The translations under genes and the position numbers were made by a program. Shown piece after piece: positions 29,793 to 53,342 of a stretch of 64,000 nt of DNA (the stretch's first letter is position 1; each line of letters opens with the position of its first letter). The DNA comes from Jiangella anatolica (GTDB lineage Bacteria; Actinomycetota; Actinomycetes; Jiangellales; Jiangellaceae). The stretch covers positions 1 to 64,000 of the forward strand of contig NZ_POTW01000012.1 of assembly GCF_003236295.1 (NCBI RefSeq), in the 5' to 3' direction. The notes beneath the pieces were generated by a model. The model was not told where the DNA came from. It saw only the letters and a list, made by a program, of their open reading frames with translations, and searched no databases.

Positions 29793-29805
29793 AAGGAACC
29801 GCAGC

Positions 29806-32079
29806 GTGAAGTTCACCGACGGCTACTGGGGCATCCGGTCCGGCGTCACCGCCCTGCACCCGGCCGAGGCGTACGACGTCGAGGCGACGGAGAACAGCCT
29901 CACGGTCTACGCGCCGACCCAGCGCATCCGCAAACGCGGCGACGTGCTCAACCGGCCGCTGGCGACCGTCCGGCTCTCCTCGCCCATGCCCGACGTCGTC
30001 GCGGTGCGGATCCTCCACCACGCCGGCGGGCTGCAGCGGCCGCCGTCGTTCGAGCTGCCCGGCGCCACCGCCACCCCCGTGACGACCCGCGCCGGTGACG
30101 ACGTCGCCGAGCTGACGTCGGGCGGGCTGACGGCGCGCGTGGTCCGCGGTGAGGACTGGCGGCTCGACTTCGTGGCCGGCGACCGCGTCCTCACCTCGTC
30201 GAGCACCAAGGGCATGGGCCTCATGACCACGCCCGACGGCGTCCACCACGTGGTCCAGCGACTGGACCTCGGGCCCGGCGACGTCGTGTACGGCCTGGGG
30301 GAGCGGTTCGGGCCACTGGTGAAGAACGGCCAGACCGTCGACATCTGGAACAACGACGGCGGCACCGCCAGCGAGCAGGCCTACAAGAACGTCCCGTTCT
30401 ACCTGACCAACGCCGGCTACGGGGTCTTCGTCAACCACCCCGGCCTGGTGTCGTTCGAGGTGGCGTCGGAGCTGGTGTCGCGCACCCAGTTCAGCGTCGC
30501 CGGCCAGGAGCTGGAGTACCTCGTCATCCACGGGCCGAGCCCGAAGGAGATCCTGCGCCGCTACACCGCGCTCACGGGCCGGCCGGCCCGGGTCCCGGCC
30601 TGGTCCTACGGCCTCTGGCTGTCGACGTCGTTCACCACCGACTACGACGAGGCGACCGTCACCTCGTTCGTCGAGGGCATGGCCGAGCACGACCTCCCAC
30701 TGAGCGTGTTCCACTTCGACACGTTCTGGATGCGCGAGTTCAACTGGTGCGACTTCGAGTGGGACCCCCGGACCTTCCCCGACCCCGAGGGGATGCTCGC
30801 CCGGCTCAAGGCCCGCGGACTGCGCATCTGCCTGTGGATCAACCCGTACATCGCGCAGCGCTCGCCGCTGTTCGCGCAGGCCGCCGCGAAGGGCTACCTC
30901 GTGCGGCGGCCCGACGGGTCGGTCTGGCAATGGGACCGCTGGCAGGCCGGCATGGGGCTGGTCGACTTCACCAACCCGGAGGCACGCGACTGGTACGCCT
31001 CGCACCTGCGCCGGCTCATGGACATGGGCGTGGACGCGTTCAAGTCCGACTTCGGCGAGCGGGTGCCCACCGACGTCGTGTGGGACGACGGCGCCGACCC
31101 GCAGCGCATGCACAACTACTACACGCAGCTGTACAACCAGACGGTGTTCGACGCGCTCAGGGAGCGGCACGGCGACGGCGGCGCGGTGGTGTTCGCCCGG
31201 TCGGCGACGGCCGGCGGCCAGCGCTTCCCGGTCCACTGGGGCGGCGACAACGACTCCACGTTCCCGTCGATGGCCGAGAGCCTGCGCGGCGGGCTGTCGC
31301 TGGCGATGTCGGGGTTCGGGTACTGGAGCCACGACATCGGCGGCTTCGAGAACCTCCCGGACCCGGCGGTGTTCAAGCGCTGGATCCCGTTCGGGATGCT
31401 CTCCACCCACAGCCGGCTGCACGGCTCGACGTCGTACCGGGTGCCGTGGGACTTCGACGACGAAGCGGTCGACGTGCTGCGCAGCTTCACCCGGCTGAAG
31501 ATGCGGCTGATGCCGTACCTGTCGGCCATGGCCCGGGAGGCCTACGAGGACGGCGTGCCGGTGCTGCGGCCGATGGCCCTGGAGTTCCCGGACGACCCGG
31601 CGACGACCTACCTGGAACGTCAGTACCTGCTCGGCGACCGGCTGCTGGTGGCGCCGGTGATGAGCGCGGACGGCACGGTGTCGTTCTACGTGCCGGCCGG
31701 GACGTGGACGTCGCTGCTGGACGGCACGCAGGTGACCGGGCCGGGCTGGGTGACGCAGAGGCACGGCTTCGACAGCGTGCCGGTGCTGGTGCGCCCGGAC
31801 ACGGTGCTGCCGTTCGGCGCCGTCGACGACCGGCCCGACTACGACTACGCCGACGGCATCACGCTGCGTCTGTACGAGCTGACCGACGGCCACGACTCCA
31901 CCCTGGTCGTGCCCTTGGCGGACGGTGACGCGCGGGTCACCTACCGGGTGCGGCGGGAGGGCTCGCGGGTCGACGTCAGCACCGGCCGCGACGACGTTCC
32001 CTGGCGCGTCGAGGTCCCCGGCACCCGCGTCGTCGTGCACGCCGAACCCGGCACGACGGAGCTGTCGCTGGAGGTGTGA
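29806..32079 (+). CDS. yicI: GH31 alpha-xylosidase, YicI type
   Basis: This 757-residue enzyme is close to E. coli YicI along its whole length. It opens with KFTDGYWGIRSG and keeps blocks such as VYGLGERFGPLVKNGQTVDI and SFGLW-type strands. The nucleophile is Asp415 in KSDFGE and the acid/base is Asp481 in HWGGDND. It has no signal peptide and acts in the cytoplasm on alpha-xylosides, typically isoprimeverose or xyloglucan-oligosaccharide ends. It starts at a GTG with an AAAGGAA site and is the last gene of the operon, followed by a strong stem-loop. The YicI call is strong; natural substrate remains an inference. Confidence 0.93.
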   Translation: MKFTDGYWGIRSGVTALHPAEAYDVEATENSLTVYAPTQRIRKRGDVLNRPLATVRLSSPMPDVVAVRILHHAGGLQRPPSFELPGATATPVTTRAGDDVAELTSGGLTARVVRGEDWRLDFVAGDRVLTSSSTKGMGLMTTPDGVHHVVQRLDLGPGDVVYGLGERFGPLVKNGQTVDIWNNDGGTASEQAYKNVPFYLTNAGYGVFVNHPGLVSFEVASELVSRTQFSVAGQELEYLVIHGPSPKEILRRYTALTGRPARVPAWSYGLWLSTSFTTDYDEATVTSFVEGMAEHDLPLSVFHFDTFWMREFNWCDFEWDPRTFPDPEGMLARLKARGLRICLWINPYIAQRSPLFAQAAAKGYLVRRPDGSVWQWDRWQAGMGLVDFTNPEARDWYASHLRRLMDMGVDAFKSDFGERVPTDVVWDDGADPQRMHNYYTQLYNQTVFDALRERHGDGGAVVFARSATAGGQRFPVHWGGDNDSTFPSMAESLRGGLSLAMSGFGYWSHDIGGFENLPDPAVFKRWIPFGMLSTHSRLHGSTSYRVPWDFDDEAVDVLRSFTRLKMRLMPYLSAMAREAYEDGVPVLRPMALEFPDDPATTYLERQYLLGDRLLVAPVMSADGTVSFYVPAGTWTSLLDGTQVTGPGWVTQRHGFDSVPVLVRPDTVLPFGAVDDRPDYDYADGITLRLYELTDGHDSTLVVPLADGDARVTYRVRREGSRVDVSTGRDDVPWRVEVPGTRVVVHAEPGTTELSLEV

Positions 32080-33150: not shown

Positions 33151-34320
33151 CTAGGCAGGCCGGGGCGAGCTCTCCACGCGGGGGTAGCCGTCCGGCTCGT
33201 CGGCGGCGAGGTGGGCGTAGACGTGGGTGTCGGTCGCCGTCCAGCCGAGGAGGCCGGGCCGGTCCGGGCCCGCCCAGGGGCGGGTGCCATAGACGGCCTC
33301 GCCGTGGGCGGCCAGCCACTCGCCGAGACCGCGCAACGGGGTCAGCTGCTCGTCGGGGATGGTGCCGTCGGCGCGCGGGCCGACGTTGAGCAGCAGGTTG
33401 CCGCCGCGGGTGACGATGTCGACGAGGCGGTGGGCGAGCTGCGGGCCGGTGAGGTGGTGCTCGGCGGTCTCGTTGGCGTTGTAGCCGAACGAGAGGCCGA
33501 TGCCGCGGATGTGCTCCCACGGCCGACCGGTGGTCTCGCGGTCCGCGAGCGCGGAGTACTCGCTGGTCAGGAAGTCCGCCCAGCCCGCCTCCCATCGGTC
33601 GTTCACGACACCGCCGGGTACGGCGTCGTAGTAGCGGCGGAACATCTCGGGCAGGCCGGGCTTGCCGGCGTCGGGCCAGTTGATGTCGTTCCAGAGCACG
33701 TCCGGCCGGTACCGCTCGACGAGGTCCTCGAGCTGCGCGCGGGCGTAGGCCGCGTACTCGGCGTCGACCGGCCGGTGCGTCTCCAGGTGCGCGGCCCGGC
33801 TGATCGGCGGCAGGTCGGACGCGTGCCAGTCCAGCCCGCCGGAGTAGTAGGTGCCGAACCGCAGCCCCGCTCCGCGCACGGCGCCGGCCAGGTCGGCGAC
33901 CAGGTCGCGGCGCGGGCCACGGGCGACGGCGTTGTAGGTCCCGCTGCCCGGCGCGTCCCACAGGCAGATGCCGTCGTGGTGCTTGGTGACGAGGACGACG
34001 TACCGGGCGCCGACGCCGGCGAACAGCGACGCCCAGCCGGACGGGTCGAACCGCTCGGCTCCCCACGCGTCGAGGAACGACTCGTACGGCGCGCCGCCGT
34101 GGACCCGAGCGTGGTGCTCGGCCGCCGGGCTGCCCGGGATCCGCGTCGTGTTCGCGTACCACTCGGCGTACGGGGAGCGGACCATGAACTCGTCGTGGTC
34201 GACGGCGCCCAGCTCACCGATCGGCGTCGCCCAGGCCGGTACTGAGTAGGCGCCCCAATGGACGAAGATGCCGAACTTGGCGTCCGGGAACCAACCGGGG
34301 ATCTCGCGTTCGAGGGTCAT
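33151..34320 (-). CDS. GH29 alpha-L-fucosidase
   Basis: This 389-residue enzyme is a family GH29 alpha-L-fucosidase. The N-terminal WFPDAKFGIFVHWGAYSVPA, the substrate-binding VTKHHDGICLWDAP and the nucleophile Asp212 in VLWNDINWP are all present. There is no signal peptide, so it works inside the cell on imported fucosides. It lacks the C-terminal beta-sandwich of longer GH29 members, and is thus short. It is the last gene of the minus-strand operon after the CUT1 importer; its ATG lies just after the upstream permease stop with a GAAGGG site. Confidence 0.9.
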   Translation of the reverse strand: MTLEREIPGWFPDAKFGIFVHWGAYSVPAWATPIGELGAVDHDEFMVRSPYAEWYANTTRIPGSPAAEHHARVHGGAPYESFLDAWGAERFDPSGWASLFAGVGARYVVLVTKHHDGICLWDAPGSGTYNAVARGPRRDLVADLAGAVRGAGLRFGTYYSGGLDWHASDLPPISRAAHLETHRPVDAEYAAYARAQLEDLVERYRPDVLWNDINWPDAGKPGLPEMFRRYYDAVPGGVVNDRWEAGWADFLTSEYSALADRETTGRPWEHIRGIGLSFGYNANETAEHHLTGPQLAHRLVDIVTRGGNLLLNVGPRADGTIPDEQLTPLRGLGEWLAAHGEAVYGTRPWAGPDRPGLLGWTATDTHVYAHLAADEPDGYPRVESSPRPA

Positions 34321-34321
34321 C

Positions 34322-35212
34322 TCAGCCCTTCAGAGCGCCGGCGCTGCCGGCGCTGTCGAGGAACTGCCGCTGGAACACCAGGAACAGCCCCACCGGGATC
34401 ACGACGGCGATGAACAGCGCCGCCATCTGGACGTCGAGCGGGAAGCTGTCGGCGACCTTGGGCAGCGCGACGGAGATCGGCTGCTTGTCCGGGTCGGGCA
34501 GGACGAGAAGCGGCCACAGGTAGTCCTTCCACGACGCGACGATCGTCAGCAGCGACACCACGCCCAGGATCGGCCGCGACATCGGCAGCACGATGCTGAA
34601 CAGCACCCGCACCGGGCCGGCGCCGTCGATGCGGGCCGCCTCGTACAGCTCTGGCGGGATCTGGTCGAAGAACCGCTTGACGATCAGCACGAGGAACGCA
34701 CTGGCCGCGTGCGGCAGCCACACCGCCCAGTACGTGTCCAGCAGCCGCCAGCCGGGGCCGGGCAGCTCCAGCACCGTCAGGTACAGCGGGACCAGCGACA
34801 CGATGTTCGGGATGAACAGCGTCGCGAGGACGGCGGCCGACAACAGCCCGCCCCACCGCGGCCGCAGCACGCTGAGCACGTACGCGCCGGTGACGCACGT
34901 GATGAGCGTCGCCGCCCAGGAGCCGAGCACCACCCAGGCGGTGTTGAGCAGGTAGTCGCCGACCCGCACGTCGGTCCAGGCGCGGGCCAGGTTGCCGAAC
35001 TCGAACTCGCCGTCGAACAGCATGCCGAACGGGTCGGCGATGATCTCCTGGCTGCTCGACAGCGCCGCCTTGAACAGCCACAGCAGCGGCCCCAGGCAGG
35101 CGACCAGCAGGCCGGCGAGGATCAGCGCCTGGGTGAGGCCGAGCCAGAACCGCACCCTCGGGCTCTTGCGGTCCGCGGGCGAGATCGCGCCGCGCTCGTA
35201 GGTCCGCGACAT
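34322..35212 (-). CDS. Carbohydrate ABC permease, MalG/YtcP type
   Basis: This 296-residue CUT1 permease has six predicted helices, contact loop EAARIDGAGPVRVLFSIVLP, and the tail FQRQFLDSAGSAGALKG. Its ATG overlaps the stop of the other permease (ATGA). A close relative with the same tail motif is at 51495-52400 in this window. It imports the substrate for the downstream fucosidase with its partner permease. Confidence 0.9.
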   Translation of the reverse strand: MSRTYERGAISPADRKSPRVRFWLGLTQALILAGLLVACLGPLLWLFKAALSSSQEIIADPFGMLFDGEFEFGNLARAWTDVRVGDYLLNTAWVVLGSWAATLITCVTGAYVLSVLRPRWGGLLSAAVLATLFIPNIVSLVPLYLTVLELPGPGWRLLDTYWAVWLPHAASAFLVLIVKRFFDQIPPELYEAARIDGAGPVRVLFSIVLPMSRPILGVVSLLTIVASWKDYLWPLLVLPDPDKQPISVALPKVADSFPLDVQMAALFIAVVIPVGLFLVFQRQFLDSAGSAGALKG

Positions 35213-36165
35213 CAGCTCAGCCTCCGGGTGGCGGCGAAGTACACGGCCGAGACCACGCCCAGGAACAGCGCGAGCAGGACCGACAGCGCGGTGGCCGCGC
35301 CGTAGTCGCCCTCGATGAACGCGTAGTCGTAGATCATCAGCAGGATGGTCGTCGAGGCGTTGTTCGGCCCGCCGCCGGTGAACACGAACGGCTCGGTGAA
35401 GACCTGCATCGTGTTGATGATCTGCAGCAGTGCCATGACCAGCACGACGCCGCGGATCTGCGGCAGCGTGACGTGCCAGGTGCGGCGGAGGATGCCGGCG
35501 CCGTCGATCTCGGCGGCCTCGTAGAGCTCCCGCCGCACCGCCGTGAGCGCGGCGAGGTAGATGATCGTCGTGCTGCCGAAGTACGCCCAGGTGGCCTCGA
35601 CGACGATCGCCGGCAGCACCGTGCCGGCCGAGTTCAGCCAGCCGAAGGGGCCGGCGCCGAACCAGCCCAGCACGGTGTTGAACAGGCCGGTCGGCTCCGG
35701 GCTGTAGAAGAACTTCCAGAGCAGGACGGCCACGACCGGTGGGATGATCACCGGCAGGTACGCCAGCACGCTGTACAGCCGCCGGGTGCCGCGCAGCTCG
35801 GCCATGAACGTCGCGAGCAGCAGCGGCGCCGGGAACCCGATCAGCAGCGCCAGCACGGCGAACAGCAGCGTGTTCCCGATCGCCTTCGGGAGCAGCGGGT
35901 CACTGAGCACGTAGCTGAAGTTGCTCCACCCGACGAACTCGGGCGGGTCGACGAGGTTGGTGCGCTGCATCGACATCGCGACGCCGTCGATGATCGGCCA
36001 CCACGCGAAGTACCCGAAGACGAACACCAGCGGCAGCGCGAAGGCGATCTTCGTCAGCCCGCCGCGGGCCACCCACGTCCGCAGCGTGCCGCGCCGCGGC
36101 GGCCGCGGCCGGGCCCGGGGCGCGGCCGCCCCGGCCGGCGGCGCGGCGGACACCGTCGCCGTCAC
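35212..36165 (-). CDS. Carbohydrate ABC permease, MalF/LplB type
   Basis: This 317-residue CUT1 permease has a proline- and arginine-rich cytosolic N-terminus, then about six helices and the contact loop EAAEIDGAGILRRTWHVTLPQ. GTG 36165 overlaps the binding-protein stop by four bases. A longer open frame upstream overlaps the binding-protein gene and is rejected. It is paralogous to the permease at 52397-53338 (both have WWPI near the first periplasmic loop and VAVLLWK in mid-protein). Confidence 0.9.
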   Translation of the reverse strand: MTATVSAAPPAGAAAPRARPRPPRRGTLRTWVARGGLTKIAFALPLVFVFGYFAWWPIIDGVAMSMQRTNLVDPPEFVGWSNFSYVLSDPLLPKAIGNTLLFAVLALLIGFPAPLLLATFMAELRGTRRLYSVLAYLPVIIPPVVAVLLWKFFYSPEPTGLFNTVLGWFGAGPFGWLNSAGTVLPAIVVEATWAYFGSTTIIYLAALTAVRRELYEAAEIDGAGILRRTWHVTLPQIRGVVLVMALLQIINTMQVFTEPFVFTGGGPNNASTTILLMIYDYAFIEGDYGAATALSVLLALFLGVVSAVYFAATRRLS

Positions 36166-37556
36166 CGGCCCAGCAGCCGGTCGACCGCGGTCGCCGCCTC
36201 GTCCAGCACGGCGTCGACGTCGGCGCCCTCCTCGGTGAGCACCTGCTGCACGACGACGTCCAGCTCGCTGTAGACCTCCTGCGCCTTCACCGCCGGCTCC
36301 GGCTGCAGCGTCTGCTCGCCGAACGCCTGGATGTAGGTCTCGAAGTTGGCGACCGGGACGTTGAGGTGCGGCTCGATCCACTCGAAGTACTGGTCGTAGG
36401 CCTCCTGGCTGACCGCCGGGCGCTCCGGGACGGTGACCGCCTGGCCGGCCGCCGCGCCGGCCTGCGCCGCCGCTACCGCGACGGCTTCGTCGGTGAACTG
36501 GCCGAGGTAGAAGAAGTCGATCCACTTCACCGCCGCGACCCGCTCCTCGGGCGTGGCGTCGGGGTTGACGACCTGGATGACGCCGCCGGTGAGCGCGGTC
36601 GGGTCCGCGTCGCCGCCGACCGGCATCGGGCCCATGCCGAAGTTCTCCGCCGGCATCTCGTTGCGGATGACCGCGGGCCGGTAGAGCCCGGAGAAGCCGA
36701 CGAACATCCCGACCCGGCCGGCCGAGAAGTCCTCCACCAGCCCGGCGGCGTTGTACAGGAAGTTGCTGCCCATGGTCTGGTCCTCCCAGCGCATGGCCCG
36801 CAGCAGGTCCAGGTACTGCGCCGCCGGTTCGTCGGCGAACGTCGCCTCGGTGCCGTCCTCGTTCTCGACGGTGCCGCCGAAGCTGTAGATGCCGGCGGCC
36901 AGCATCCAGCCGCCCTGGCCCTCCGTCGTCATGGTGGCGAACCCGGTGGCGCCGGTCGCCTCGGTGATCTGCCGCGCCGCCGCCCGGACGTCGTCCCACG
37001 TCCGCGGCGGGTCGTCGGGGTCGAGGCCGGCCTGGACGAACAGGTCGCGGTTGTAGATGAGGCCCAGCGCCTGGGCGGCGGTCGGGATGGCGTAGACGCC
37101 GCCGTCCTCGGAGCTGACGAGGCCGACGAGGTCCGGGTCGAGGTCGGCGGTCAGCCCGGCGAGGTCCATGGCCTGGGACAGCTCGGCGATCTGGCCGCGC
37201 TCGGCCAGCGAGCCGGCCTCGGTGAACGGCACCGCGAGCACGTCCGGCAGGTCGCCGGCCGCGATCTTGGCCTGGAACGTCTGTGGGTCCCAGAGCTCCT
37301 CGGTCGCCTCGACGGTGATGTTCGGGTTGGCCGCCATGAACGCCTCGACCTGGCCCTCGAAGAACTCCCGTTCCTCGGGCTCGGCGGCCGGCGGCAGGTC
37401 ACCGACGGTGATGGTGACGTCGGCGTCGAGGTCGACCTCCTCGTCGGCGGCCGGCCGGGTCGGGTCGTCCTGGCCGTCGTCGCCGCAGGCCGCGACGCCG
37501 AGGGTCAGCGCGAGCAGGACGGCGAGTGCGGACGAGCGCTTCGTTGCGGTTCGCAT
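36162..37556 (-). CDS. Sugar ABC transporter substrate-binding lipoprotein
   Basis: This 464-residue CUT1 binding lipoprotein ends its signal peptide in VAAC with Cys24 lipidated, followed by an acidic linker. The mature protein is homologous from end to end with the binding protein at 53343-54731 ([16 protein letters not shown] versus LLYNRSLFEQAGLDPD). It is 13 bases after the pyruvyltransferase-like gene and before two permeases and a fucosidase. Its ligand is probably a fucosylated oligosaccharide. Confidence 0.9.
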
Positions 37557-37569: not shown

Positions 37570-38865
37570 TCAGGTCCCCAGCGGGGGAGCGGTACGGCGG
37601 GTCAGTGGTGCGGCGCAGGCCAGGACGTGCTCGGCCATCCCGCGCAGGCGGTCGTGCGCCCGTTCGCGGACCGCCGCGGTCTCCGCGCGAGCGGCCACCG
37701 GATCGTCGAGGATCCGCTGCAGCGCGGTGACCACCGGGACCGGGCCGTCGCCGATCTCGGTGCCGCGGTGCGCGACGCCCAGGTCGGCGAACATCCGGCC
37801 CTTGAGCGTGTCGGTCGGCTGCCGGACGTAGACGGCGGGCGTGCCCTGGCTCAACGCCATGAGCGGTGAGTGGCACTCCAGGCTGACGACGGCCTGGGCG
37901 TCGCGGTACACCGTCATCGCCTCCGGTGCGGACCAGAACCGGTCCAGCACGCGGACGTAGGGCCGGACGTCGGCCGGCAGCGCGTCGCCGAAGTGGCGCT
38001 CGGCCAGCTCGACGGCGTAGGACATCTCGGGAGCGACGAGCACCGGGTGGCCGGTCCGGCGCACGTAGGCGACCATCGCCGCCGCCAGCACGCCGAGGTC
38101 GTGGTCCGCCCACAGCTCGTTGTAGGCGGTGCGGCGGAAGTCCAGCGGGCTGGGCACCTCGCCGCGGATCCGGAAGTACGGGGTCCACCGCAACCGGGGC
38201 ACAGCGCACAGGTACTCGCCGTCGACCAGGCCGTGGCGCGCCTTGGTCGCGGCCGCCGCCTCCTCGTCGAGCAGGTCGAACGCGACGGTCGCGTCCGGCC
38301 CGAACGCGACCGCCGGGCCGGTCAGGCCGAGCGAGCGCAGGAACACCTCGGTGACGGAGTCGCGGCAGTACACGAACGCCGCGCCGTCGAGCACCGCCAG
38401 CTGGTGGTCGTCGACGCCGCCGCGGCCGAGCGAGCGCACCATCGTCTCGATCTCGTCCAACGTGCCGGTGAACATCGGGTTCAGCGGGTCGACGGAGATG
38501 CCGAAGAACCCGTACGGCCGGCCCGTCGCGGCCCATACCCGCACGTCGTCGGCCGCGACCACGCTGGGACCGGACCCGTGCACCAGGACGTCCGCCGCGT
38601 CCAGCGCGGCCGCGAGCTCGGGGGTGGTGGCGGAGCCGTCCGGGCGCAGCTCACCGTCGACGACGTCGACCTGCGGGAACGCGGCCGCGAGCATGGTCCG
38701 CTCCCGCGCCCCGATGGCCACCGGCCAGAGCACCAGCCGCGCGTCCGGCGCGTACCGGGCCAGCGCTCGCAGCGCGCCGGGCGTGTGCGCGACGTCGCCG
38801 ATGTTCGGCGTCTGCCAGGACGATCGCAGCAGGATCGTGGGTCCGTTCGTGGCCGGGTAGGTCAC
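37570..38865 (-). CDS. Polysaccharide pyruvyl transferase family protein
   Basis: This 431-residue protein has the pattern of the polysaccharide pyruvyl transferase family (PF04230). It shows NIGDVAHTPGALRAL near the N-terminus, HGSGPSVVAADD in the middle, RDSVTEVFLRSLGL, and SLECHSPLMALSQGTPAVYV near the C-terminus. The last block corresponds to the usual SxRxHxLI motif, with the histidine kept and the arginine replaced. GTG 38865 has an AAGGAG site. It is the first gene of the importer-fucosidase operon under a LacI operator, an odd place for an enzyme family that normally builds polysaccharide. A role in handling pyruvylated or otherwise modified sugars is a guess. Confidence 0.75.
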   Translation of the reverse strand: MTYPATNGPTILLRSSWQTPNIGDVAHTPGALRALARYAPDARLVLWPVAIGARERTMLAAAFPQVDVVDGELRPDGSATTPELAAALDAADVLVHGSGPSVVAADDVRVWAATGRPYGFFGISVDPLNPMFTGTLDEIETMVRSLGRGGVDDHQLAVLDGAAFVYCRDSVTEVFLRSLGLTGPAVAFGPDATVAFDLLDEEAAAATKARHGLVDGEYLCAVPRLRWTPYFRIRGEVPSPLDFRRTAYNELWADHDLGVLAAAMVAYVRRTGHPVLVAPEMSYAVELAERHFGDALPADVRPYVRVLDRFWSAPEAMTVYRDAQAVVSLECHSPLMALSQGTPAVYVRQPTDTLKGRMFADLGVAHRGTEIGDGPVPVVTALQRILDDPVAARAETAAVRERAHDRLRGMAEHVLACAAPLTRRTAPPLGT

Positions 38866-38885
38866 CGAGGCTCCTTCTGGTTCGC

Positions 38886-38903
38886 TGATGCCACGTTGCA
38901 TCA
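38886..38903. promoter_or_regulatory. LacI-type operator, TGATGC class, minus-strand operon
   Basis: TGATGCCACGTTGCATCA has perfect six-base outer arms (TGATGC/GCATCA) around a central ACG. It overlaps the predicted -10 of the pyruvyltransferase operon. A nearly identical site is at 40023-40040 on the other side of the LacI gene. Confidence 0.85.
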
Positions 38904-38929
38904 AACGCCGGGAGATGCCCACCTGTCAA
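38900..38929 (-). promoter_or_regulatory. Predicted promoter of the pyruvyltransferase-importer-fucosidase operon
   Basis: On the minus strand TTGACA (38924-38929) is followed after 18 bases by TTTGAT (38900-38905). The operator covers the -10, so bound LacI would prevent initiation. Confidence 0.6.
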
Positions 38930-38942: not shown

Positions 38943-39974
38943 TCAGGTGGTTTCGCGGTGCCGGAGCTCCGGCGGCGGCGAGGTCAGGACCTGCGACGAG
39001 ATGCGCTCGCCCTCGATCGCCCGGGCGAGCAGCGTCGTGCCGGTGTGGCCGAGCTCGTACATCGGCATCCGTACCGCGCTGATCGTTGGTGTGACGTCGG
39101 CCAGCACGTCGATGTCGTGGATCGCGACGACGGCGAGGTCGTCCGGCAGCCGCAGGCCGGCGGCGATGGCGCCGCCGACCACGCCGACGGAGGTGGTGGC
39201 GTTGTTGACGACGAACGCCGTCGGCCGGTCGGGCAACGCCACGATGCGCTCGATGGCGGCCCGCCCGGCGCTCGCGGCGTAGTCGGACTCGATGACGTCC
39301 TCGGCGCGCGGCTCGATGCCGGCCGCGCGCAGGGCGGCGTGGTAGCCGTCGAGGCGGCGCAGGTTGATGTGGCGGAACCCCTCGCGCGGCCGGAACGTGG
39401 CGTGCGGGCGCAGCCAGCCGCCGAGGAACCCGATGCGGGTGTGGCCCCGCTCGAGCAGGTGCTCGGTGGCGACGCGGGCGGCCGCGGCGTCGTCGATGGC
39501 CAGCCAGGGCTGCGCGCGGTCGGGCACCTCGTCGAGCACGACGACCGGCGCGTCGCGCTGCAGCATCGAGCGGACGCCGGCGGAGTCGAGGTCCGCGCTG
39601 GGCCGCAGGATGGTGCCGTCGACCTGCCCGTGGCCGAGGATCCGCTCCAGCATGCGCGAGCCGTCGACCAGCCGCATGGCCTCGGCCAGCATGATCACGT
39701 AGCCGCGCTCCTCGGCGGCGTCGTGGATGCCGTCGAGCATGGGCGTGAAGACCGGGTTGCTCAGCTTCGGCGCGACGACGGCGAGGACGCCGGAGCGGGC
39801 GGTGCGCAGCGAGCGCGCCGCGAAGTTCGTGGTGTAGCCGAGCTCCTCGACCTTGGCGAGGACGAGCGCGCGGGTGGCCTCGCTCATGCGCACGTGCCGG
39901 CTGCCGTGCAGAACGGCCGACACCACCGACGGGGACACTCCGGCGGCGGCGGCGATCTCCTTCACCGTCACCAT
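38943..39974 (-). CDS. LacI-family regulator of the fucosidase locus
   Basis: This 343-residue LacI repressor begins with a helix-turn-helix VTVKEIAAAAGVSPSVVSAV and has a full sensor domain that ends with IHDIDVLADVTPTISAVR and the effector-contact tail. The start at ATG 39974 is taken from homology; GTG 39971 and 40001 are possible. It sits between two divergent units, each preceded by a TGATGCxxCGTTGCATCA-type operator. It should repress both until a sugar ligand binds. Confidence 0.9.
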   Translation of the reverse strand: MVTVKEIAAAAGVSPSVVSAVLHGSRHVRMSEATRALVLAKVEELGYTTNFAARSLRTARSGVLAVVAPKLSNPVFTPMLDGIHDAAEERGYVIMLAEAMRLVDGSRMLERILGHGQVDGTILRPSADLDSAGVRSMLQRDAPVVVLDEVPDRAQPWLAIDDAAAARVATEHLLERGHTRIGFLGGWLRPHATFRPREGFRHINLRRLDGYHAALRAAGIEPRAEDVIESDYAASAGRAAIERIVALPDRPTAFVVNNATTSVGVVGGAIAAGLRLPDDLAVVAIHDIDVLADVTPTISAVRMPMYELGHTGTTLLARAIEGERISSQVLTSPPPELRHRETT

Positions 39975-39994
39975 TGCGCGAATCCTATGCCTTC

Positions 39995-40023
39995 TTGACA
40001 CGGGCGGACCCTGGTGCCAGCCT
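39995..40023 (+). promoter_or_regulatory. Predicted promoter of the Tat-exported protein gene
   Basis: TTGACA (39995-40000) is followed after 17 bases by CAGCCT (40018-40023). The operator at 40023-40040 starts at the last base of the -10. Confidence 0.6.
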
Positions 40024-40040
40024 GATGCAGCGTTGCATCA
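40023..40040. promoter_or_regulatory. LacI-type operator, TGATGC class, plus-strand gene
   Basis: TGATGCAGCGTTGCATCA shares 16 of 18 bases with the site at 38886. It lies 20 bases before the start of the Tat-exported protein, just ahead of the AGGAGG ribosome site. Confidence 0.85.
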
Positions 40041-40060: not shown

Positions 40061-42034
40061 ATGGACCCGGACAACACTTCGGCCGCTCCCGGCACGGGCC
40101 TGACCCGCCGGACGCTCATGGGTCTCGGCGCGTCCGCCGTGACGGGGCTGGTGCTCGGCTCGAACGCCGGCACGGCCGCCGCGAAGCCCGCCGCTTCGGC
40201 TGCCGCGGCGGGCGGCCCGCTCGCCCCGGTGGCGCCGTACGATCCCGCGACGCTGGTGCGCGGCCAGTTCGCGCCGGAGGAGCAGCGGCTGGCCCGCTTC
40301 CTGGTGACGCTGCCGGATCTGGCGAACAAGATGGACCTCGAGAACGAGGAGACCTACGGCTGGTTCAACGGCGGCTACTGGCGCACGCCGCTGGTGCCGT
40401 ACAACGCGAACATCCAGCAGAGCGTCTACACGCTGTCCTGGTTCTACACCCAGCAGCGGGAGTGGAATCCGTACTATCTGGACCCCGCGCTGCGCGACCG
40501 CATCTACGCCGGCATCCGGTTCTACCTCTCGCTGCAGGGCCCGGACGGCTGGTTCCCGGCGTGGAGCTACGTCGACCGCAACCGCGACGTCACCGCCTAC
40601 GCCCTGGTGTTCCTCGGCGAGACCGCGCTGCTGCTGGAGAGCGTCGGCTGGGCCGACGACATCCGGTCGGAGGTGCTGGCCGCGCTGGTGCGCGCCGCCG
40701 ACTACGTCCTCGACCCGGCGAACGAGGACGTGTGGACGATCGGCCCGGAGTTCTCCAACCAGGTGATCCCGGCGCTGATGGGCGTCTGGATGGTGCGTCA
40801 CCTGCTGCCGGCCCGCATCCTGCGCGCGTACGAGGACCGCATGACGTACTACGTCGAGAACGCGCAGAGCGAGGGCGCGGGCTACCTCTACGAGTCCGCC
40901 GCGTTCGACGCGCACTACGCGCTCTACGTGACCACGCGGATGTTCGCCCGGCTCTACGGGTTGAACGGCGACGAGCGGCTCAAGCAGATGCAGCTCGAGC
41001 ACTTCGACTGGTGCCGCTTCAACTACCTGTGGGAGCCCGACGGCGCCGGCTTCACCGTCAACGGCATCTCGACCCGGCTGTCGATGCGCTCGCTGCCGTC
41101 CCAGCGGACCACCGACGAGAGCAGCTATCCGGACCTGCTCAACGTGTGGGCGGCGGACAGCCCGGTCGCGGTCGCGCTGAACTGGGACCGCGAGCACGTC
41201 GACGGGCTGCGCTCGGCGTGGGCGGCCGCGACGGAGCCGCTGACGCCGATGGGCAACCCCGTCGACCCGATGAACATCTGGTTCGCCGAGCAGCGGGCGC
41301 AGACGTTCGCCACCCGCGAGCAGCGCATGCAGGCGATCCGCTCGTTCCCGTACTTCGGCCGCCCGTTCGTCGAGGCCCGCAGCGACACCCGCTACGACCA
41401 GCACTACCTGTTCGTCAACCGGCAGGGCTACTACTTCGCCAGCCACCACGGCAACGTCGCCAAGGGCAGCACCGTGCCGAAGGGGCCGTCGTTCTTCTAC
41501 CACCACACGACGGGCGCGTTCGTGGCGACGCAGATGGCGACCGACAGCGTGTGGTCCACCCGGCTGTCGCGCGACTTCGTCGACGCGGAGGCGCGGATGC
41601 TGAAGATCCGCGGCGACGTGCGCCAGACCCTCCCGTTCGACTACACGTACTACACGTACCGGCCCAGCGGCGGCTCGGTCGCGAAGACGTTCCACTGCCT
41701 GCCCGACAAGCTCGCCGTCGACGTCGAGACCAACGAGTCCTCGTTCGTCGAACGGCTCCCATTGGTCATCGCCCCGGACGACGACGTGCGGTGGCTGCTC
41801 GCCGGCGGCGGCACGGCGCCGGTCGAGAACGGCGCCGGCGTCCAGGCGGTGGGCATCAGGGTCGGCCGGACCGGCGGCGCGTTCGAGCTGCGGCTCGCGG
41901 CGCCGCTGCGGCTCTCGCTCACCGCGTCGACGATCACGCTGTTCAGCGGGGCGCGGCAGCGGACGATCAAGGACCTGGACATCGCCGCCACGGCGTCGAC
42001 GCTGAGCTACAGCCTCCAGATCCGGCCCCGATAG
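40061..42034 (+). CDS. Tat-exported protein of unknown family, probably a glycan-active enzyme
   Basis: This 657-residue protein has a twin-arginine signal (LTRRTLMGLGASAV, about residues 14-27) and an Ala-rich cleavage region, so it is exported folded. The next 350 residues are mainly helical and rich in Trp and Tyr (YGWFNGGYWRTPLVPYNANI, WFYTQQREWNPYYL, GPDGWFPAWSY), the pattern of an alpha/alpha toroid. From about residue 450 it turns beta-rich, with an FFYHHTTGAFVATQ segment and a C-terminal sandwich-like part. That layout is typical of polysaccharide lyases and some glycosidases, but I do not recognise the family. An AGGAGG site fixes ATG 40061. The co-regulated importer and fucosidase suggest it releases a fucosylated oligosaccharide. 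Confidence 0.8.
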   Translation: MDPDNTSAAPGTGLTRRTLMGLGASAVTGLVLGSNAGTAAAKPAASAAAAGGPLAPVAPYDPATLVRGQFAPEEQRLARFLVTLPDLANKMDLENEETYGWFNGGYWRTPLVPYNANIQQSVYTLSWFYTQQREWNPYYLDPALRDRIYAGIRFYLSLQGPDGWFPAWSYVDRNRDVTAYALVFLGETALLLESVGWADDIRSEVLAALVRAADYVLDPANEDVWTIGPEFSNQVIPALMGVWMVRHLLPARILRAYEDRMTYYVENAQSEGAGYLYESAAFDAHYALYVTTRMFARLYGLNGDERLKQMQLEHFDWCRFNYLWEPDGAGFTVNGISTRLSMRSLPSQRTTDESSYPDLLNVWAADSPVAVALNWDREHVDGLRSAWAAATEPLTPMGNPVDPMNIWFAEQRAQTFATREQRMQAIRSFPYFGRPFVEARSDTRYDQHYLFVNRQGYYFASHHGNVAKGSTVPKGPSFFYHHTTGAFVATQMATDSVWSTRLSRDFVDAEARMLKIRGDVRQTLPFDYTYYTYRPSGGSVAKTFHCLPDKLAVDVETNESSFVERLPLVIAPDDDVRWLLAGGGTAPVENGAGVQAVGIRVGRTGGAFELRLAAPLRLSLTASTITLFSGARQRTIKDLDIAATASTLSYSLQIRPR

Positions 42035-45437: not shown

Positions 45438-47000
45438 ATGACGGCTGACGTGTGTGTCTATGGCGGGACGCCCGCCGGGTGCGTGGCGGCGGTGGCCGTT
45501 GCCCGCGAAGGAGCGTCGGTGGTGCTCGTCGAGCCCAGTCGGTGGCTCGGCGGCATGCTGGGCGCCGGCATCAAACCCCTGCAGGACTGCCCGCTCCCTG
45601 ACGCGGCCGGCGGGCTCACCCGCGACGTCGTGCTCGCGATGGGCGAGGATCCCCGGGCGATCCCGAGCGCGTTCCACCGCTGGGTCCGCGACGCCGGGGT
45701 CGACGTCCGGTTCGAGCGCCGGGTGCGGACGGTCACCATGGCCGGCCAGCGCGTCGAGGCGATCCGGCTGGAGACGTCGGCGCCGGACGCCTGGGGTGTC
45801 CCGCTGCCCGCGTCCGAGGCGGTCGCGGCCGAGGACGTGCGTGCCCGGGTCTTCGTCGACGCCTCGTACGAGGGCGACCTGATGGCGGCCGCCGGCGTGC
45901 CCTACCGCACGGGACGCGAGGCGCGGACGGCGTTCGGTGAGGCGCCGGCCGGGGTCGGCGAGGTGACGAACTGGACGCCGGTCGACCCCTACGTCGTCCC
46001 CGGCGACGCGACCAGCGGCCTGCTGCCGTTCATCGACGACGACCACGGACGCGCGATCGGGGCGGCGGACGAGTTCACGCAGGCGTACAACTTCCGGTTC
46101 TACGTCACGACGGACCCGGCCAGGCGCGAGCCGCTCACGCCGCCGGAGGGCTACCGCCCGGAGCGGTTCGAACTGGTCCGCCGCTACGTGCGCCACCTCG
46201 TCGCGGCCGAGCGGGATCCGGCGGCGCTGGCCGGCCGGCTGCGCGGCATCTTCCCCGGCTGGCTGAACTCGGGGGAGTACAACTACCAGCGCGACGCCCT
46301 CGTCACCATCGCACCGCTCGGCGTCAGCCGCGAGTACCAGGACGGCAACTGGGACGTGCGCTCGGCGATCTGGCGCGAGCACATCGACTACCTGCGCGGC
46401 CTTCATCATGTCCTCTCGACCGCTCCGGAGGTCCCGGCGTGGTTCCGCGCGGAGACGGCGGCGATCGGCCTGGACCGGGACGTCTTCCCGGCGACGTCGG
46501 GGTGGCCGCACCAGCTGTACGTGCGCGTGGCGCGCCGGCTGGCCGGCGCCTACACCCTCACCCATGCCGACGTCCTCAACCGGACGTCGGTGGCCGACGC
46601 CGTCGGCCTGGCGCTGTTCGGCGTCGACACCTATCCGGCCCGCCGGATCGCCCGGCGCGGCCCGGGTGGCGAGGGGATGGGCGTCGCGACCGAGGGGAAC
46701 ATGTTCATCGGCGGTCACCTCGGCACCGGCGTCCCGTATCCCGTCCCGTACCGCGCCCTGACGCCGCGGCCCGGCGACTGCGCGAACCTGCTGGTGCCGG
46801 TCTGTCTCTCCGCGACGCACATCGCCTACGCCGCGACCCGGATGGAGCCGGTGTTCTGCGTGCTCGGCGAGTCCGCGGGGGTCGCGGCGGTCATGGCGCT
46901 GCGCGCCGGTGCGCCGGTGCAGGACGTCGACGTCGAGGGTCTGCGCGACCGGCTGCGCGAGCTGGGCCAGGTGCTGTCCTGGCCGCCCGCCGCGCGCTGA
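45438..47000 (+). CDS. FAD-dependent oxidoreductase (PF12831 type)
   Basis: This 520-residue protein has an N-terminal Rossmann FAD-binding motif (GGTPAG at residues 9-14, then VVLVEPSRWLGGMLGAGI). It continues with GYRPERFELVRRYVRHLV and, near the end, CLSATHIAYAATRMEPV and a second FAD-contact segment. This layout is typical of the FAD_oxidored family often found next to sugar-degradation genes. No signal peptide is visible. The divergent AraC gene is its likely regulator. The electron acceptor and substrate cannot be told from sequence. Confidence 0.85.
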   Translation: MTADVCVYGGTPAGCVAAVAVAREGASVVLVEPSRWLGGMLGAGIKPLQDCPLPDAAGGLTRDVVLAMGEDPRAIPSAFHRWVRDAGVDVRFERRVRTVTMAGQRVEAIRLETSAPDAWGVPLPASEAVAAEDVRARVFVDASYEGDLMAAAGVPYRTGREARTAFGEAPAGVGEVTNWTPVDPYVVPGDATSGLLPFIDDDHGRAIGAADEFTQAYNFRFYVTTDPARREPLTPPEGYRPERFELVRRYVRHLVAAERDPAALAGRLRGIFPGWLNSGEYNYQRDALVTIAPLGVSREYQDGNWDVRSAIWREHIDYLRGLHHVLSTAPEVPAWFRAETAAIGLDRDVFPATSGWPHQLYVRVARRLAGAYTLTHADVLNRTSVADAVGLALFGVDTYPARRIARRGPGGEGMGVATEGNMFIGGHLGTGVPYPVPYRALTPRPGDCANLLVPVCLSATHIAYAATRMEPVFCVLGESAGVAAVMALRAGAPVQDVDVEGLRDRLRELGQVLSWPPAAR

Positions 47001-47072: not shown

Positions 47073-50000
47073 TCAGCCGTCCGTCAGCCGGAGCGGGCTG
47101 AACAGCGCGCCGTCCTTGGTCTCGGCGACGCCCGCGCCCCACGTGAACCAGCCACGCCGCCCGGCGCCGTCGTTCTCGTTGAGCACGGCGGTGAGCCCGA
47201 GCAGCCGGTCCTCGGGGTGCACGCCGAGCGCCGCCCAGGTGACCGACAGCTCGTAGACGGTCGTGTCGCCGGCCTCGTCGCGGACGACGGCCGACCGGAC
47301 CCCGGTGGTGTCCGGCGCGAGGTCGGTCGGCAGCCAGCGGGCGACGTCCACCGCGCCGGCGTCGGTGAGCGCCGTGCCGATCTCGTGGACGACGGAGCGT
47401 TCGCCGGGCACGCCCGCGGCGGCGCCGAGCTGGATGCCGTCGCCGGCCCAGATGTCGGAGCCGCGGCCGGGCTGGGCGTGGACGTCGTCGGTGATCTCGG
47501 CGGTGAGGTACAGCGCCTCGGCGTCGTGGGTGAGCCAGAGCCGGCCGGAGAGGTCGGCGTCGCCGCCCCACCCGTCGACCACCTGCCGCGCGTCGTCGGT
47601 CAGTGAGATCGGCGGCAGCGCCGCGACCGCGGGGTCGACGGCCCCGTCGACGGACACCGAGGCGGCCGGGACGTCGTGGGCCGTCCCGACGGGGAACAGC
47701 GTGCCGTTCGCGGTGGTCGTGCTGGCCGCGACGGCGGTGGCGGTCCACGGCGTCGCCTCGGCGACGGTCACCGGGACGTCGAGGCTGACGACCGCGCCGG
47801 GCTCGACCACGGTCCCCTCCAGCCCGCTGGTGTGCTCGCCGGCCACGTCGACCTGCACGGACGTGAGCTCCACCGGCACGCCGGCGTTGTTCGCCGCCCG
47901 GACCCGCAGCACGTGCGTGCCGTCGTCGAGCTCGGCGTGGCTGCCGGTGAGGGCGATCGCCTCGACGACGTCGGCCCGGGCGGTGAGGTAGGCGACGGAG
48001 GCCGTGCCGCTGGTGACGGTGGCCGACCAGACCCGCTCGCCCGGCGTGGCCGTCGCGGGCAGCTCGACGTCGAGCGTGGCCGCGCCGTGCGGCTTCACCC
48101 GGGCCCGGGTCGTCTCGGCGCCGGTGTCCAGCTGCACGTTCAGGACCCGCCGGCCGTCGGTGTTGTCGACCGTCCAGCGGGCCGGCACCGGAGCGCCGAC
48201 GGCGCCGCCGGAGGTCTCCAGGGCGTAGGTCGTCGAGACCTCCACCCCGGTGATCGGCCCGGACACGTACACCGGCTCCGGCCCGACCGCCACGTGCACC
48301 GCGCCGTCCGTGCCGGGCGAGAGGACGTGCTCGGCGCCGTAGAGGTCGGTGACGGTGACCGCGCCGGTCGTGCTGAACGCCAGCGCGCTGGTCTGCGCGC
48401 CGGACGTGGCCCACGCCGCGTGCAGCTCGTCGCCGGAGCCGGCGTCCAGGACGACGTCGTGCACGCCCGTCGCCGGCGTCTCCTCGCGCAGGAACGGCTT
48501 GCCGGCGATGGTCCTGGTCAGGATCGCGTTGGCGACGTAGGCCGGCTTGGGCGTGTAGGCGCCGCGCTCGTCGGCCTCGTTGCGGATGATCCCGAACCGG
48601 TGCTCCAGCTCGTCGGAGTCTGTGCCGTCGTCCTTGAAGTCGTACGTGGTGTAGCGCTCGACGCCGTTCGCGATCGCCAGCAGCTGCGCCCGCGTCAGGT
48701 TGCGGGCCTGGACCGTCTCGCTGACGGCGCGCGGCGACGTGCCGGTCGGCCAGCCGTGCTCGGTGATGAGGATCGGCATGTCGGCGTGCCCGGCGGCCGC
48801 GAAGATCGACCGGAGGATCTGCAGGTGGGCCAGATACGCCTCCGGCTCGCCGGGGAACACGTACGGGTGGGTCGAGAACGCGTCGACGTGGTCCAGGCCG
48901 CCGAGGTCGACGAACTCCTGCACCCAGGCCTGCCAGTCGTCCATCGGCGCGAGCGCGCCGGCCACCAGGTAGGCGTCCGGGTACTGCGCGCGTACCGCCT
49001 GGCTCGTCGTGCGGACCAGGCCGAAGTAGTTCGCCGCGGTGGCGCCGGCCGGGCCGGAGCGGTCCCGCCAGTTCCACTCGTTCCACAGCTCGTAGATGGT
49101 GTCGTCGGTGCCGAACCGTTCCATCGAGGCCAGCGCGTAGCGGGCGTAGGCGTCCCAGCCCTCCTGCGTCGCCGGCGCCTCGCCCGCGTGGTAGAGCGGG
49201 TTGCCGTAGGCGAGGATGTTGAGGAAGTCGATCCCGTTGTCCTCGAACGCGTTCGCGTAGGTCTCCACCTTCGGGGTCCAGGCGAAGACGCCCGGGGTCC
49301 GTTCCTGCTGCGCCCAGTAGGCCTCGTCGCGCGCCGAGGAGAACCCGGCTCGGGCGATCAGCGGGATGGTGACCGGATCCCAGGCCTGGCCGTAGTGCGT
49401 CGAGACACCGATCCGGCGGTCCGTCGTGGCGCCGGGGTCGAACGGCTCGAGAATGGACAGGTCGGTCCCTCCGGTCGTGACGACGCCGCCGGCGGCGGTC
49501 GCGACCAGGTCGACGGCGTACCAGCCGACCGCGGAGACCTGGAGCGGGATCTCGCCGCCCAGGCCGGCGACGGCGGCGGAGCCGGTCTCGACCCGGTTGC
49601 CGTACGCGTCGCGCACGGTCCAGGACACCCGCTCGGCGTTCGACGCGAAGCCGATCCGCACCGGCTGCCCGGCGTCGAACGCGTTCCCGACGACGACCGG
49701 CTCGATCGTGAGCGTCGGCGCCGTGCCGGGCGGGGTGACGGCCAAGACGTCGTCGACCAGCAGCGTGCCGGTCGGGCCGTCGGTCAGCCGGAAGTAGTCG
49801 ACGAGCAGCGAGACCTGGGTGAGCGGGCCCTGCCAGACGCCGTCGCCGTCACCGCCCCAGGTGATGTGCTCGGTGCCGCCGCCGAGGTCGGCGACGGTGA
49901 GGTCCTGCCAGGCGCCGTTCGCGGGGTCGAGGTCGATGCGCTGCTGGTGCGCCTCGCCGCCGGCCTCGACCGCGCGGACCACGATGGCCCGGAGGTCGGT

Positions 50001-50327
50001 CGTGCGCAGCGAGAACCGCAGCTGGTCGGTGTCGATCGACGGCACGCCGCGGACCAGCTCGACGATGCCGCTGGGCATCTGGACGTCGAGGCGGGCCGAC
50101 GCGGCGCCGGTGCGGGCGTCGTCGGTGGTCCGCGTGACCGTGCCGGTGGCGCCGCCCGCCGTGGCGACGAACCAGGGCGACGTGCCGGTCTCGAAGTCGC
50201 CGAGCGGCACGCCGGACGTGGCGGACGATTCGGCCGCGGCGCCGGGGGCGAGTCCGGCCAGGGCGGCGATGGCGGCGGCGGCCGTGACGGCGGCCATGAG
50301 TCGGGTGAGGCGGGGTGGGGGCGACAT
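47073..50327 (-). CDS. Large secreted clan-A glycosidase (GH39/GH5-like) with CBM9-like C-terminus
   Basis: This 1084-residue protein has a signal peptide (cleavage near residue 33), an N-terminal sugar-binding-type beta-sandwich, then a TIM barrel with acid/base Glu417 in ELWNEWNW and nucleophile Glu523 in ITEHGWP. These match clan GH-A, with GH39 or GH5-like layout. Further beta domains follow, and the last 190 residues resemble a CBM9/DOMON-like module (SLTDDARQVVDGWGG, LSGRLWLTHDAEALYLTAEI). It is the only secreted glycosidase of the locus under the GCAAGCGCTTGC-class operators. It probably cuts a beta-linked plant polymer, but specificity is open. Confidence 0.88.
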   Translation of the reverse strand: MSPPPRLTRLMAAVTAAAAIAALAGLAPGAAAESSATSGVPLGDFETGTSPWFVATAGGATGTVTRTTDDARTGAASARLDVQMPSGIVELVRGVPSIDTDQLRFSLRTTDLRAIVVRAVEAGGEAHQQRIDLDPANGAWQDLTVADLGGGTEHITWGGDGDGVWQGPLTQVSLLVDYFRLTDGPTGTLLVDDVLAVTPPGTAPTLTIEPVVVGNAFDAGQPVRIGFASNAERVSWTVRDAYGNRVETGSAAVAGLGGEIPLQVSAVGWYAVDLVATAAGGVVTTGGTDLSILEPFDPGATTDRRIGVSTHYGQAWDPVTIPLIARAGFSSARDEAYWAQQERTPGVFAWTPKVETYANAFEDNGIDFLNILAYGNPLYHAGEAPATQEGWDAYARYALASMERFGTDDTIYELWNEWNWRDRSGPAGATAANYFGLVRTTSQAVRAQYPDAYLVAGALAPMDDWQAWVQEFVDLGGLDHVDAFSTHPYVFPGEPEAYLAHLQILRSIFAAAGHADMPILITEHGWPTGTSPRAVSETVQARNLTRAQLLAIANGVERYTTYDFKDDGTDSDELEHRFGIIRNEADERGAYTPKPAYVANAILTRTIAGKPFLREETPATGVHDVVLDAGSGDELHAAWATSGAQTSALAFSTTGAVTVTDLYGAEHVLSPGTDGAVHVAVGPEPVYVSGPITGVEVSTTYALETSGGAVGAPVPARWTVDNTDGRRVLNVQLDTGAETTRARVKPHGAATLDVELPATATPGERVWSATVTSGTASVAYLTARADVVEAIALTGSHAELDDGTHVLRVRAANNAGVPVELTSVQVDVAGEHTSGLEGTVVEPGAVVSLDVPVTVAEATPWTATAVAASTTTANGTLFPVGTAHDVPAASVSVDGAVDPAVAALPPISLTDDARQVVDGWGGDADLSGRLWLTHDAEALYLTAEITDDVHAQPGRGSDIWAGDGIQLGAAAGVPGERSVVHEIGTALTDAGAVDVARWLPTDLAPDTTGVRSAVVRDEAGDTTVYELSVTWAALGVHPEDRLLGLTAVLNENDGAGRRGWFTWGAGVAETKDGALFSPLRLTDG

Positions 50328-50476: not shown

Positions 50477-51475
50477 ATGGCAACGGAGGAGAACGTGACG
50501 TTGAGCGACGTTGCGGCGGTTGCGGGGGTGTCGGTCTCGACCGCCTCCAGGGCGCTCAACGGGACCGGCCGGGTCTCGGTCGAGACGCGCGAGCGCATCG
50601 AGGTCGCGGCCCGCCGGCTGAACTTCCGTCCGAACGCGCTTGCACAATCGCTTGCGCTGGGGCGGAGCCGCACGGTCGCCATCCTCACCGATCGTGCGTC
50701 GAACACCTTCTCGATGCCCGTCCTCATCGGCGCCGCGGGCCATCTCGGGGCACAGGCGCAGGCGGCGCTCGTGTGTGATGCGCGACTCAACCGCCGGAAC
50801 ATGGCCGAGCACATCGCCGAGCTGCGCGCGCGGCGCATCGACGGCGTGGTCGTCGTGGGCGACGGCCTACGGGGGCTCACACGTTCCGTGACGGCCGAGT
50901 TCACCGTCCCCGTCTCCTACGCGTTCACGCTGTCCGACGACGCCGACGACGCGATGTTCATCCCGGACAACGAGGCGGTGGGGCGGATCGCGGCAGAACA
51001 CCTGCTGGGGCTCGGACGCACCCGGATCGCCCACGTGACCGCCGAGGACGACGATCTCGCGGTGCGCCTGCGCGCCGACGGGCTCCTGCGGACCCTCGAC
51101 GACGCCGGTGTACGGCTGGCCGGCGAGGTCCTCCACGGCGCCTGGCGCGAGAACTGGGGCCGCGACGCCGCGCAGCGCCTGGTGGCCGAGGCGTGGGACG
51201 TCGACGCCGTGTTCTGCGGCAACGACCACATCGCCCGCGGCGTCGAGAGCGCGCTGGTCGCGGCCGGCCGACGGGTCCCGGACGACGTCGCACTGGTCGG
51301 GGTGGACAACTGGGAGGGGCTGATCCTCGATCAGAGCACCCGGCACCTCACCACCATCGACGTCGGGCTCGGCGCCATGGGCGCGGCGGCCGCCGCGCAC
51401 GTGCTCGCGGGCGAGGAGAGCCCCGGTGTGCACCATCAGCCACCGACCCTGATCGTCGGCGACACCAGCGAGTGA
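50477..51475 (+). CDS. LacI-family regulator of the clan-A glycosidase locus
   Basis: This 332-residue LacI repressor has the N-terminal helix-turn-helix TLSDVAAVAGVSVSTASRAL and a complete sensor domain (DDVALVGVDNWEGLILDQ near the end). The ATG at 50477 has a weak ribosome site (GATGGGCGC region). It is divergent from the secreted glycosidase gene, and the gap carries one of the three shared operators. Its 3' end converges on the importer operon. It probably controls this secreted enzyme, the importer operon and the 57265 enzyme. Confidence 0.9.
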   Translation: MATEENVTLSDVAAVAGVSVSTASRALNGTGRVSVETRERIEVAARRLNFRPNALAQSLALGRSRTVAILTDRASNTFSMPVLIGAAGHLGAQAQAALVCDARLNRRNMAEHIAELRARRIDGVVVVGDGLRGLTRSVTAEFTVPVSYAFTLSDDADDAMFIPDNEAVGRIAAEHLLGLGRTRIAHVTAEDDDLAVRLRADGLLRTLDDAGVRLAGEVLHGAWRENWGRDAAQRLVAEAWDVDAVFCGNDHIARGVESALVAAGRRVPDDVALVGVDNWEGLILDQSTRHLTTIDVGLGAMGAAAAAHVLAGEESPGVHHQPPTLIVGDTSE

Positions 51476-51494
51476 CCGCGCGGCGCGCATGCCG

Positions 51495-53338: not shown

Positions 53339-53342
53339 GCGA

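Follow-up and report, generated by a model that had tools for sequence, protein, structure and literature searches.

We describe a protein of 657 residues, encoded in the 64-kb window (the whole stretch of Jiangella DNA that was analysed), which on balance we read as an exported glycan lyase of an unclassified family and a distant homologue of the lyases that combine an (alpha/alpha)n toroid with an antiparallel beta-sheet domain. That it is an unrecognised polysaccharide-degrading enzyme is probable, because its family carries the active-site signature of such lyases and because its gene has a control site in common with a sugar importer. The parts of this reading differ in strength: it is very likely that the protein is an extracellular carbohydrate-active enzyme and likely that its toroid is homologous to that of the Hep-type lyases, and the best single mechanism, towards which we lean, would be beta-elimination on a uronate glycan. 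The toroid and beta-sheet lyase families PL12, PL15, PL17, PL21, PL33, PL35 and PL39 appear to be distant relatives.

Gene product and putative export signal

The reading frame and its length were confirmed, with an ATG at 40061, shortly preceded by an AGGAGG ribosome-binding site, and a stop codon at 42032-42034.

40061..42034, plus strand: lyase-like gene, 657-aa protein with a Tat-like leader, unclassified toroid-lyase-like family
40061..40219, plus strand: residues 1 to about 53 (predicted end), comprising the twin-arginine leader with its Ala-rich stretch
40757-40759, plus strand: codon of N233, proposed active site
40916-40918, plus strand: codon of Y286, proposed active site

At its N-terminus the protein has the motif LTRRTLM and then a hydrophobic stretch rich in Ala, which is Tat-like, as the earlier note on this DNA had claimed. 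By a lenient count an RR pair is present within the first 40 residues in 47 of 48 distinct family members (that of L021 looks accidental), and the Pfam model TAT_signal (PF10518) was found in 3 of 19 members searched one by one (best E 8e-4), the window protein's own Pfam matches not including it. We thus infer that this protein of a soil bacterium is exported by the Tat system and acts outside the cell. The same note took Tat export as a hint at a cofactor; since the profile of PL8 lyases from the same class starts with a similar SRR leader, Tat export is no argument for one.

Family membership and distribution

Searches with the single protein gave no family in Pfam (best E 0.18) and nothing near the cut-off in NCBIfam (best E 0.017). 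Against PDB sequences the best E was 0.13 with the single protein and 1.5 with a profile of 19 rows, and none of these matches was a lyase or glycosidase. None of the 19 members searched one by one matched the Pfam Hep model (PF07940) at E <=1. With the 19-row profile no lyase chain of the PDB appeared at E <=10, in a library that contains the PL17/33/35/39/40-type chains 4nei, 8r70, 8khv, 6jp4 and Uly1040. For the libraries searched, the claim that the protein belongs to no recognised family therefore stands, and there was also no confident match to a family of known non-glycan function in Pfam, NCBIfam or the PDB sequences. The family is unnamed by Pfam and NCBIfam; a CAZy entry that has no Pfam model would escape these libraries.

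A scan of genome contigs gave one close relative, in Jiangella endophytica. Members were present in 9 of 22 genomes of the window's own taxonomic family (10 of 22 by alignment, the tenth through a match of the signal peptide only), in 11 of 393 genomes of the class sample and in 1 of 396 of the phylum sample, which is the window's own genome. The taxonomic family of genome G717 has members in 13 of 24 genomes, six matches being the most in any one genome (five of all the matches are without a locus), and the largest number, seven, was found in one Jiangella genome. A plasmid collection added six records, from Streptomyces (4), Nonomuraea (1) and Gemmatirosa (1), the last belonging to Gemmatimonadota and not to Actinomycetota; viral contigs held no relative. 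Few genomes per sample together with the Gemmatirosa member show a family that is sparse but crosses phyla. The set used here comprised 51 rows, all of which entered the profile comparisons, and after removal of three duplicates 48 distinct members from Jiangella and its relatives, another actinomycete family, Streptomyces, Nonomuraea and Gemmatirosa; L007, L008, L009, L010 and L015 (near-copies or truncated members) were left out after the first alignment.

In all 48 members 22 residues are invariant, including R108, R133, N136, N233, G274, Y286, R339, R454 and W498. E74 is the sole invariant acid, with E278 (39 E, 9 D) and E325 nearly invariant. H481 is present in 46 members and is replaced by D in L080 and by I in L081, and therefore may not be catalytic. 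L040, L102, L107, L109, L110 and their relatives are extended at the C-terminus by about 200 residues containing repeats (e.g. LWWGxNAxxxRLxENG), which look like carbohydrate-binding or Ig-like modules.

Predicted fold and probable relationship to toroid lyases

The earlier note had proposed an aromatic-rich helical toroid followed by beta-rich modules. The aromatic enrichment was confirmed in a mild form, F, W and Y making up 15.3% of residues 51-350 vs 11.1% of residues 351-657. AlphaFold reached a pLDDT of 31 with the single sequence and a mean pLDDT of 33, which is low confidence, when the J. endophytica orthologue was added. The second model has nine helices of at least 12 residues within 72-322; past 322 strands predominate, with some further helices as far as 427. 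Compared with the PDB by Foldseek, this model had no match at E <=0.001 and no lyase among the best 50 matches listed, which were mainly designed helical repeats and toroids at E 0.03 or worse. The helical-then-beta layout is thus a prediction that agrees with the secondary structure of this low-confidence model and with the toroid profile match described below.

Profiles of toroid families were built from actinomycete genomes and compared by hhalign with the profile of the mature family, with block-shuffled controls as the null. The rows kept were 29 of 30 loci for Heparinase II/III (Hep; L112, read in a wrong frame, was dropped), 28 of 30 for PL8, 25 of 30 for GH127, 10 of 10 for PF05426, 12 of 15 for GH88 and 17 of 17 for DUF2264. 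The Hep profile scored 40.1, a value reached by 0 of 100 shuffles (null maximum 26.8); for comparison, the two lyase profiles Hep and PF05426 reach 44.8 against each other. The relation to toroid lyases that the lyase-like layout had suggested has thus gained statistical support. The scores of PL8 (19.7, reached by 57 of 100 shuffles with the mature protein), of PF05426 (PL5 type; 13.5, 88 of 100, in a profile of only 10 sequences), of GH88 (PF07470; 27.1, 10 of 60) and of DUF2264 (PF10022; 18.8, 37 of 60) lay within the null. An early PL8 score of 40.8 came from the shared Tat leader alone and was gone once mature proteins were compared. Since the GH127 profile also matches locally, generic toroid similarity seems to contribute to these matches. 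The hhalign probability of the Hep alignment is 27%, which alone is insufficient; together with the residues described next we take the match as homology of toroid and active site.

Proposed active-site signature

The earlier note saw no catalytic motif in the single sequence. Aligned relatives revise this, displaying N233, G274, E278 and, after a small insertion, Y286 as the signature of Heparinase II/III. N233, G274 and E278 align at a constant offset to the Hep columns N, G and E, each of which is invariant in 29 of 29 rows, and Y286 falls two columns off the invariant catalytic Tyr column. The spacing from G to E is 4 in 48/48 family rows and 29/29 Hep rows, and that from N to G is 41 in 46/48 family rows and either 41 (15/29) or 45 (10/29) in the Hep rows. 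From E to Y there are 8 residues in the family vs 5 in the Hep set, i.e. three extra. Both N233 and Y286 are found in 48 of 48 members and lie 53 apart in 45 of them.

Solved structures anchor the Hep set: when 14 of its 29 members were made into a profile and searched against the PDB, Heparinase III chains were found at E 2e-41. By manual count, the invariant N and Y of the set correspond to an Asn and a Tyr 54 apart in 4mmh, which equals the distance between the catalytic N240 and Y294, given as neutraliser and base/acid in PMC12088678. Table 4 of that paper lists a distance of 54 for PL12, PL15 exo-heparinase and PL35 and of 53 for PL39, and PL33 has N238 and Y291, 53 apart (PMC11848413). 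A spacing of 53 is not a strict rule, since PL17 (57), PL8 chondroitin AC lyase (59) and PL23 (63) differ (PMC12088678). As active site we propose N233, E278 and Y286, possibly with H481.

A common operator with a sugar importer

A palindromic LacI-type operator is located upstream of the lyase-like gene, and a second site lies before a divergent operon.

40023..40040: palindromic LacI-type operator, TGATGCAGCGTTGCATCA, before the lyase-like gene
38943..40001, minus strand: divergent LacI-family regulator (Pfam LacI 7.8e-11, Peripla_BP_3 1.3e-29)
38886..38903: second operator-like site, one mismatch, before the divergent operon
37570..38922, minus strand: polysaccharide pyruvyl transferase family protein (PF04230 5.5e-10)
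36162..37556, minus strand: ABC sugar solute-binding protein (SBP_bac_1 1.7e-32)
35212..36165, minus strand: ABC permease (BPD_transp_1 4.7e-15)
34322..35212, minus strand: ABC permease (BPD_transp_1 1.6e-12)
33151..34320, minus strand: alpha-L-fucosidase (Alpha_L_fucos 6.2e-84), which we take to be GH29

The 64-kb window was scanned for the 18-bp pattern TGATGCA-N4-TGCATCA with up to three mismatches, which gave four strand matches at two sites, and 0 of 100 shuffles had as many. The pattern is exact before the lyase-like gene and has one mismatch before the operon of the PF04230 gene and the importer; judged from the position of this second site, the PF04230 gene probably has its true start at 38865, on the downstream side of the operator. 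The orthologous loci L003 and L043 share the order of the PF04230, solute-binding protein, permease and fucosidase genes, and in each of them the operator occurs, with one or two mismatches, at both equivalent places but at no other position within about 20 kb. These matching operators, kept in both loci, support a single regulon of the lyase-like protein and the sugar importer, and this support is independent of homology. The LacI protein would be the one that binds the 18-bp operator.

The 64-kb window is a carbohydrate-use island. Two more loci with a LacI regulator and ABC sugar import flank the one described (24380-32076, with a GH31 glycosidase at 29806-32076, and 50477-54731). A 1084-aa open reading frame on the minus strand (47073-50327) has a C-terminal CBM9-like domain (PF06452, 4.5e-7), and its remaining residues, about 890, match nothing in Pfam at E <=0.001; NCBIfam gave no match for the frame.

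Gene neighbourhoods

Neighbourhoods of 41 family loci, many of them from other actinomycetes than the window's genus, were compared with 20 control loci around GH127, PL8, Hep or DUF2264 genes, 19 of which are from that genus. An ABC sugar importer (at least 60 bits and 300 bases) accompanies 30/41 family loci vs 10/20 controls, or 34/41 vs 11/20 without these filters, and a LacI or IclR gene 34/41 vs 10/20. GH88 genes, which would be expected for unsaturated uronates, were found in 0 of the 41 family loci and also in 0 of the 20 controls.

FAD_oxidored (PF12831) genes were detected in 26/41 family loci vs 0/20 control toroid-CAZyme loci. The HMM used was trained on genes of the family loci and is thus biased toward finding them in those loci. 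The difference is also seen within importer loci (24/30 vs 0/10) and within Jiangellaceae (9/14 vs 0/19), and the distance to the family gene ranges from 1.0 to 7.7 kb. As several family loci are orthologous, they are not independent events; on the family tree 10 changes of the FAD label are needed. In the orthologous loci L003 and L043 FAD_oxidored was not seen.

45438-47000: FAD_oxidored gene of the window, 3.4 kb from the lyase-like gene, behind unrelated genes
Other loci with FAD_oxidored: L042, L044-L048, L050, L054-L057, L079, L244-L250, L252, L254, L256, L257, L261, L262
Loci with PF04230: window, L003, L043, L053, L251, L253, L256, L258, L259; control L276

PF04230 genes occur in 9/41 family loci vs 1/20 controls, which is not significant by itself (p 0.14); a match of 81 bases in L046 was left uncounted and would make it 10/41. 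On the family tree they fall on two or more distant branches, and the sole control with one, L276, is a Hep-type lyase locus laid out like that of the window. Either gene is present in 33/41 family loci vs 1/20 controls; both are found in the window and L256, neither in 8 loci, and PF04230 in 7 of the 15 loci that lack FAD_oxidored. In rows with a readable frame (e.g. the window, L044, L047, L050, L057, L253 and L256) the Rossmann motif or the PF04230 domain starts near the N-terminus without a leader, so both partners look cytoplasmic. The PF04230 gene lies inside sugar-import loci that look catabolic, an odd place for a biosynthetic transferase. The Gemmatirosa member adjoins a LacI-like gene and genes for a 3-keto-disaccharide hydrolase, SusC and SusD, and in L046 and L055 ADP-ribosylglycohydrolase-family genes (PF03747) adjoin family members. 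Among the titles and abstract openings of the papers listed, none concerned a role of PF12831 in such loci, a Brucella flavoproteome being the only match for PF12831, and those on Jiangella polysaccharide lyases or carbohydrate-active enzymes contained nothing on the lyase-like protein.

Proposed mechanism and alternative explanations

Taken together, the enzyme would cut a uronic-acid-containing glycan outside the cell by beta-elimination, the substrate being best read as a glycan that is acidic and perhaps fucosylated. The enolate of the +1 uronate would be stabilised by N233; Y286, placed in the toroid cleft, would be the general base, the general acid or both, and may be activated by H481 from the beta-rich part. 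The adjacent ABC importer would take up the products for trimming inside the cell by the fucosidase and other enzymes, with the LacI repressor controlling enzyme and importer jointly through the two matching operators. A variant of this scheme is an oxidative-eliminative route in which FAD_oxidored, or elsewhere PF04230, handles an unusual product or substrate such as keto or pyruvylated sugars. It would explain the FAD_oxidored count (26/41 vs 0/20), the PF04230 genes in 7 of the 15 other loci and the Gemmatirosa member beside the 3-keto-disaccharide hydrolase and SusC/SusD; we consider it unlikely, and slightly more so than the hydrolase discussed next.

The same fold might be used for hydrolysis instead of elimination, e.g. 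in a toroid glycoside hydrolase distantly like GH127. The GH127 profile scored 38.6 over 79 columns with 0 of 100 shuffles reaching this, PF07944 (GH127) was the commonest weak Pfam match of the members (5 of 19, best E 0.048, beside three single weak ones) and the window's genome has 8 PF07944 matches. However, the margin to the null maximum of 36.6 is thin, and the model looks unspecific since it weakly matches a LanC-like protein too (E 2e-4). GH127 enzymes use a Cys/zinc site for catalysis, and this is absent from the family, in which the best-conserved Cys column reaches 12/48; the scarcity of invariant acids, limited to E74 with E278 and E325 nearly so, also argues against a hydrolase, which we hold to be unlikely. 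A protein that only binds carbohydrate, or a catalytically dead toroid of the locus, would be compatible with the variable H481, and the enzyme activity is a prediction; but the N, the Y, four Arg and three Trp are invariant from Actinomycetota to Gemmatimonadota, which fits an active site better and makes a dead protein distinctly improbable. The N/Y signature alone does not mean cleavage either, because human dermatan sulfate epimerase 1 (DS-epi1) has the fold and the catalytic features common to these lyases (PMC11848413), and a uronyl C5-epimerase or another non-cleaving enzyme of this kind would be compatible with the signature. The family loci with importer, repressor and glycosidases look catabolic, however, and one genome can hold up to seven members, so that we regard a non-cleaving enzyme as the least probable of these explanations.

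If the lyase reading is right, a lyase family unnamed in Pfam and NCBIfam, with up to seven members per genome among some actinomycetes, comes with a probable regulon, an importer and two candidate catalytic residues, and the flavoenzyme family PF12831 could be tied to glycan breakdown.

Comparison with known systems

Because sequence membership was not found, the protein is not filed under PL12, PL33 or another of the families listed. With PL12 heparinase III and Pfam Hepar_II_III_C it shares the toroid profile similarity, the N/G/E/Y signature and an N-Y spacing of 53 vs 54, whereas no Pfam or PDB sequence match connects them; for the Hep set's His columns in the beta domain (HxH and H) no alignable counterpart was found in the family, H481 not being aligned there. 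GH127 beta-L-arabinofuranosidases share a weak local profile similarity in their toroid, but the family lacks their conserved Cys. PL35 and PL39, with an Asn/Tyr/His triad, are similar in their Asn-Tyr distances of 54 and 53 (PMC12088678, Table 4), and differ in the missing sequence match and in the residue after the Asn, which is Gln in 47 of the 48 lyase-like members (His in one). PL33 was without a sequence match, though 8r70 and other PL33 structures were in the PDB searched, and the distance from Tyr to His is 153 in BtPL33HA (N238/Y291/H444) vs 195 in the lyase-like protein. The two are nevertheless alike in the N-Y spacing of 53 and in length, the domains of BtPL33HA ending at residue 635 (PMC11848413).
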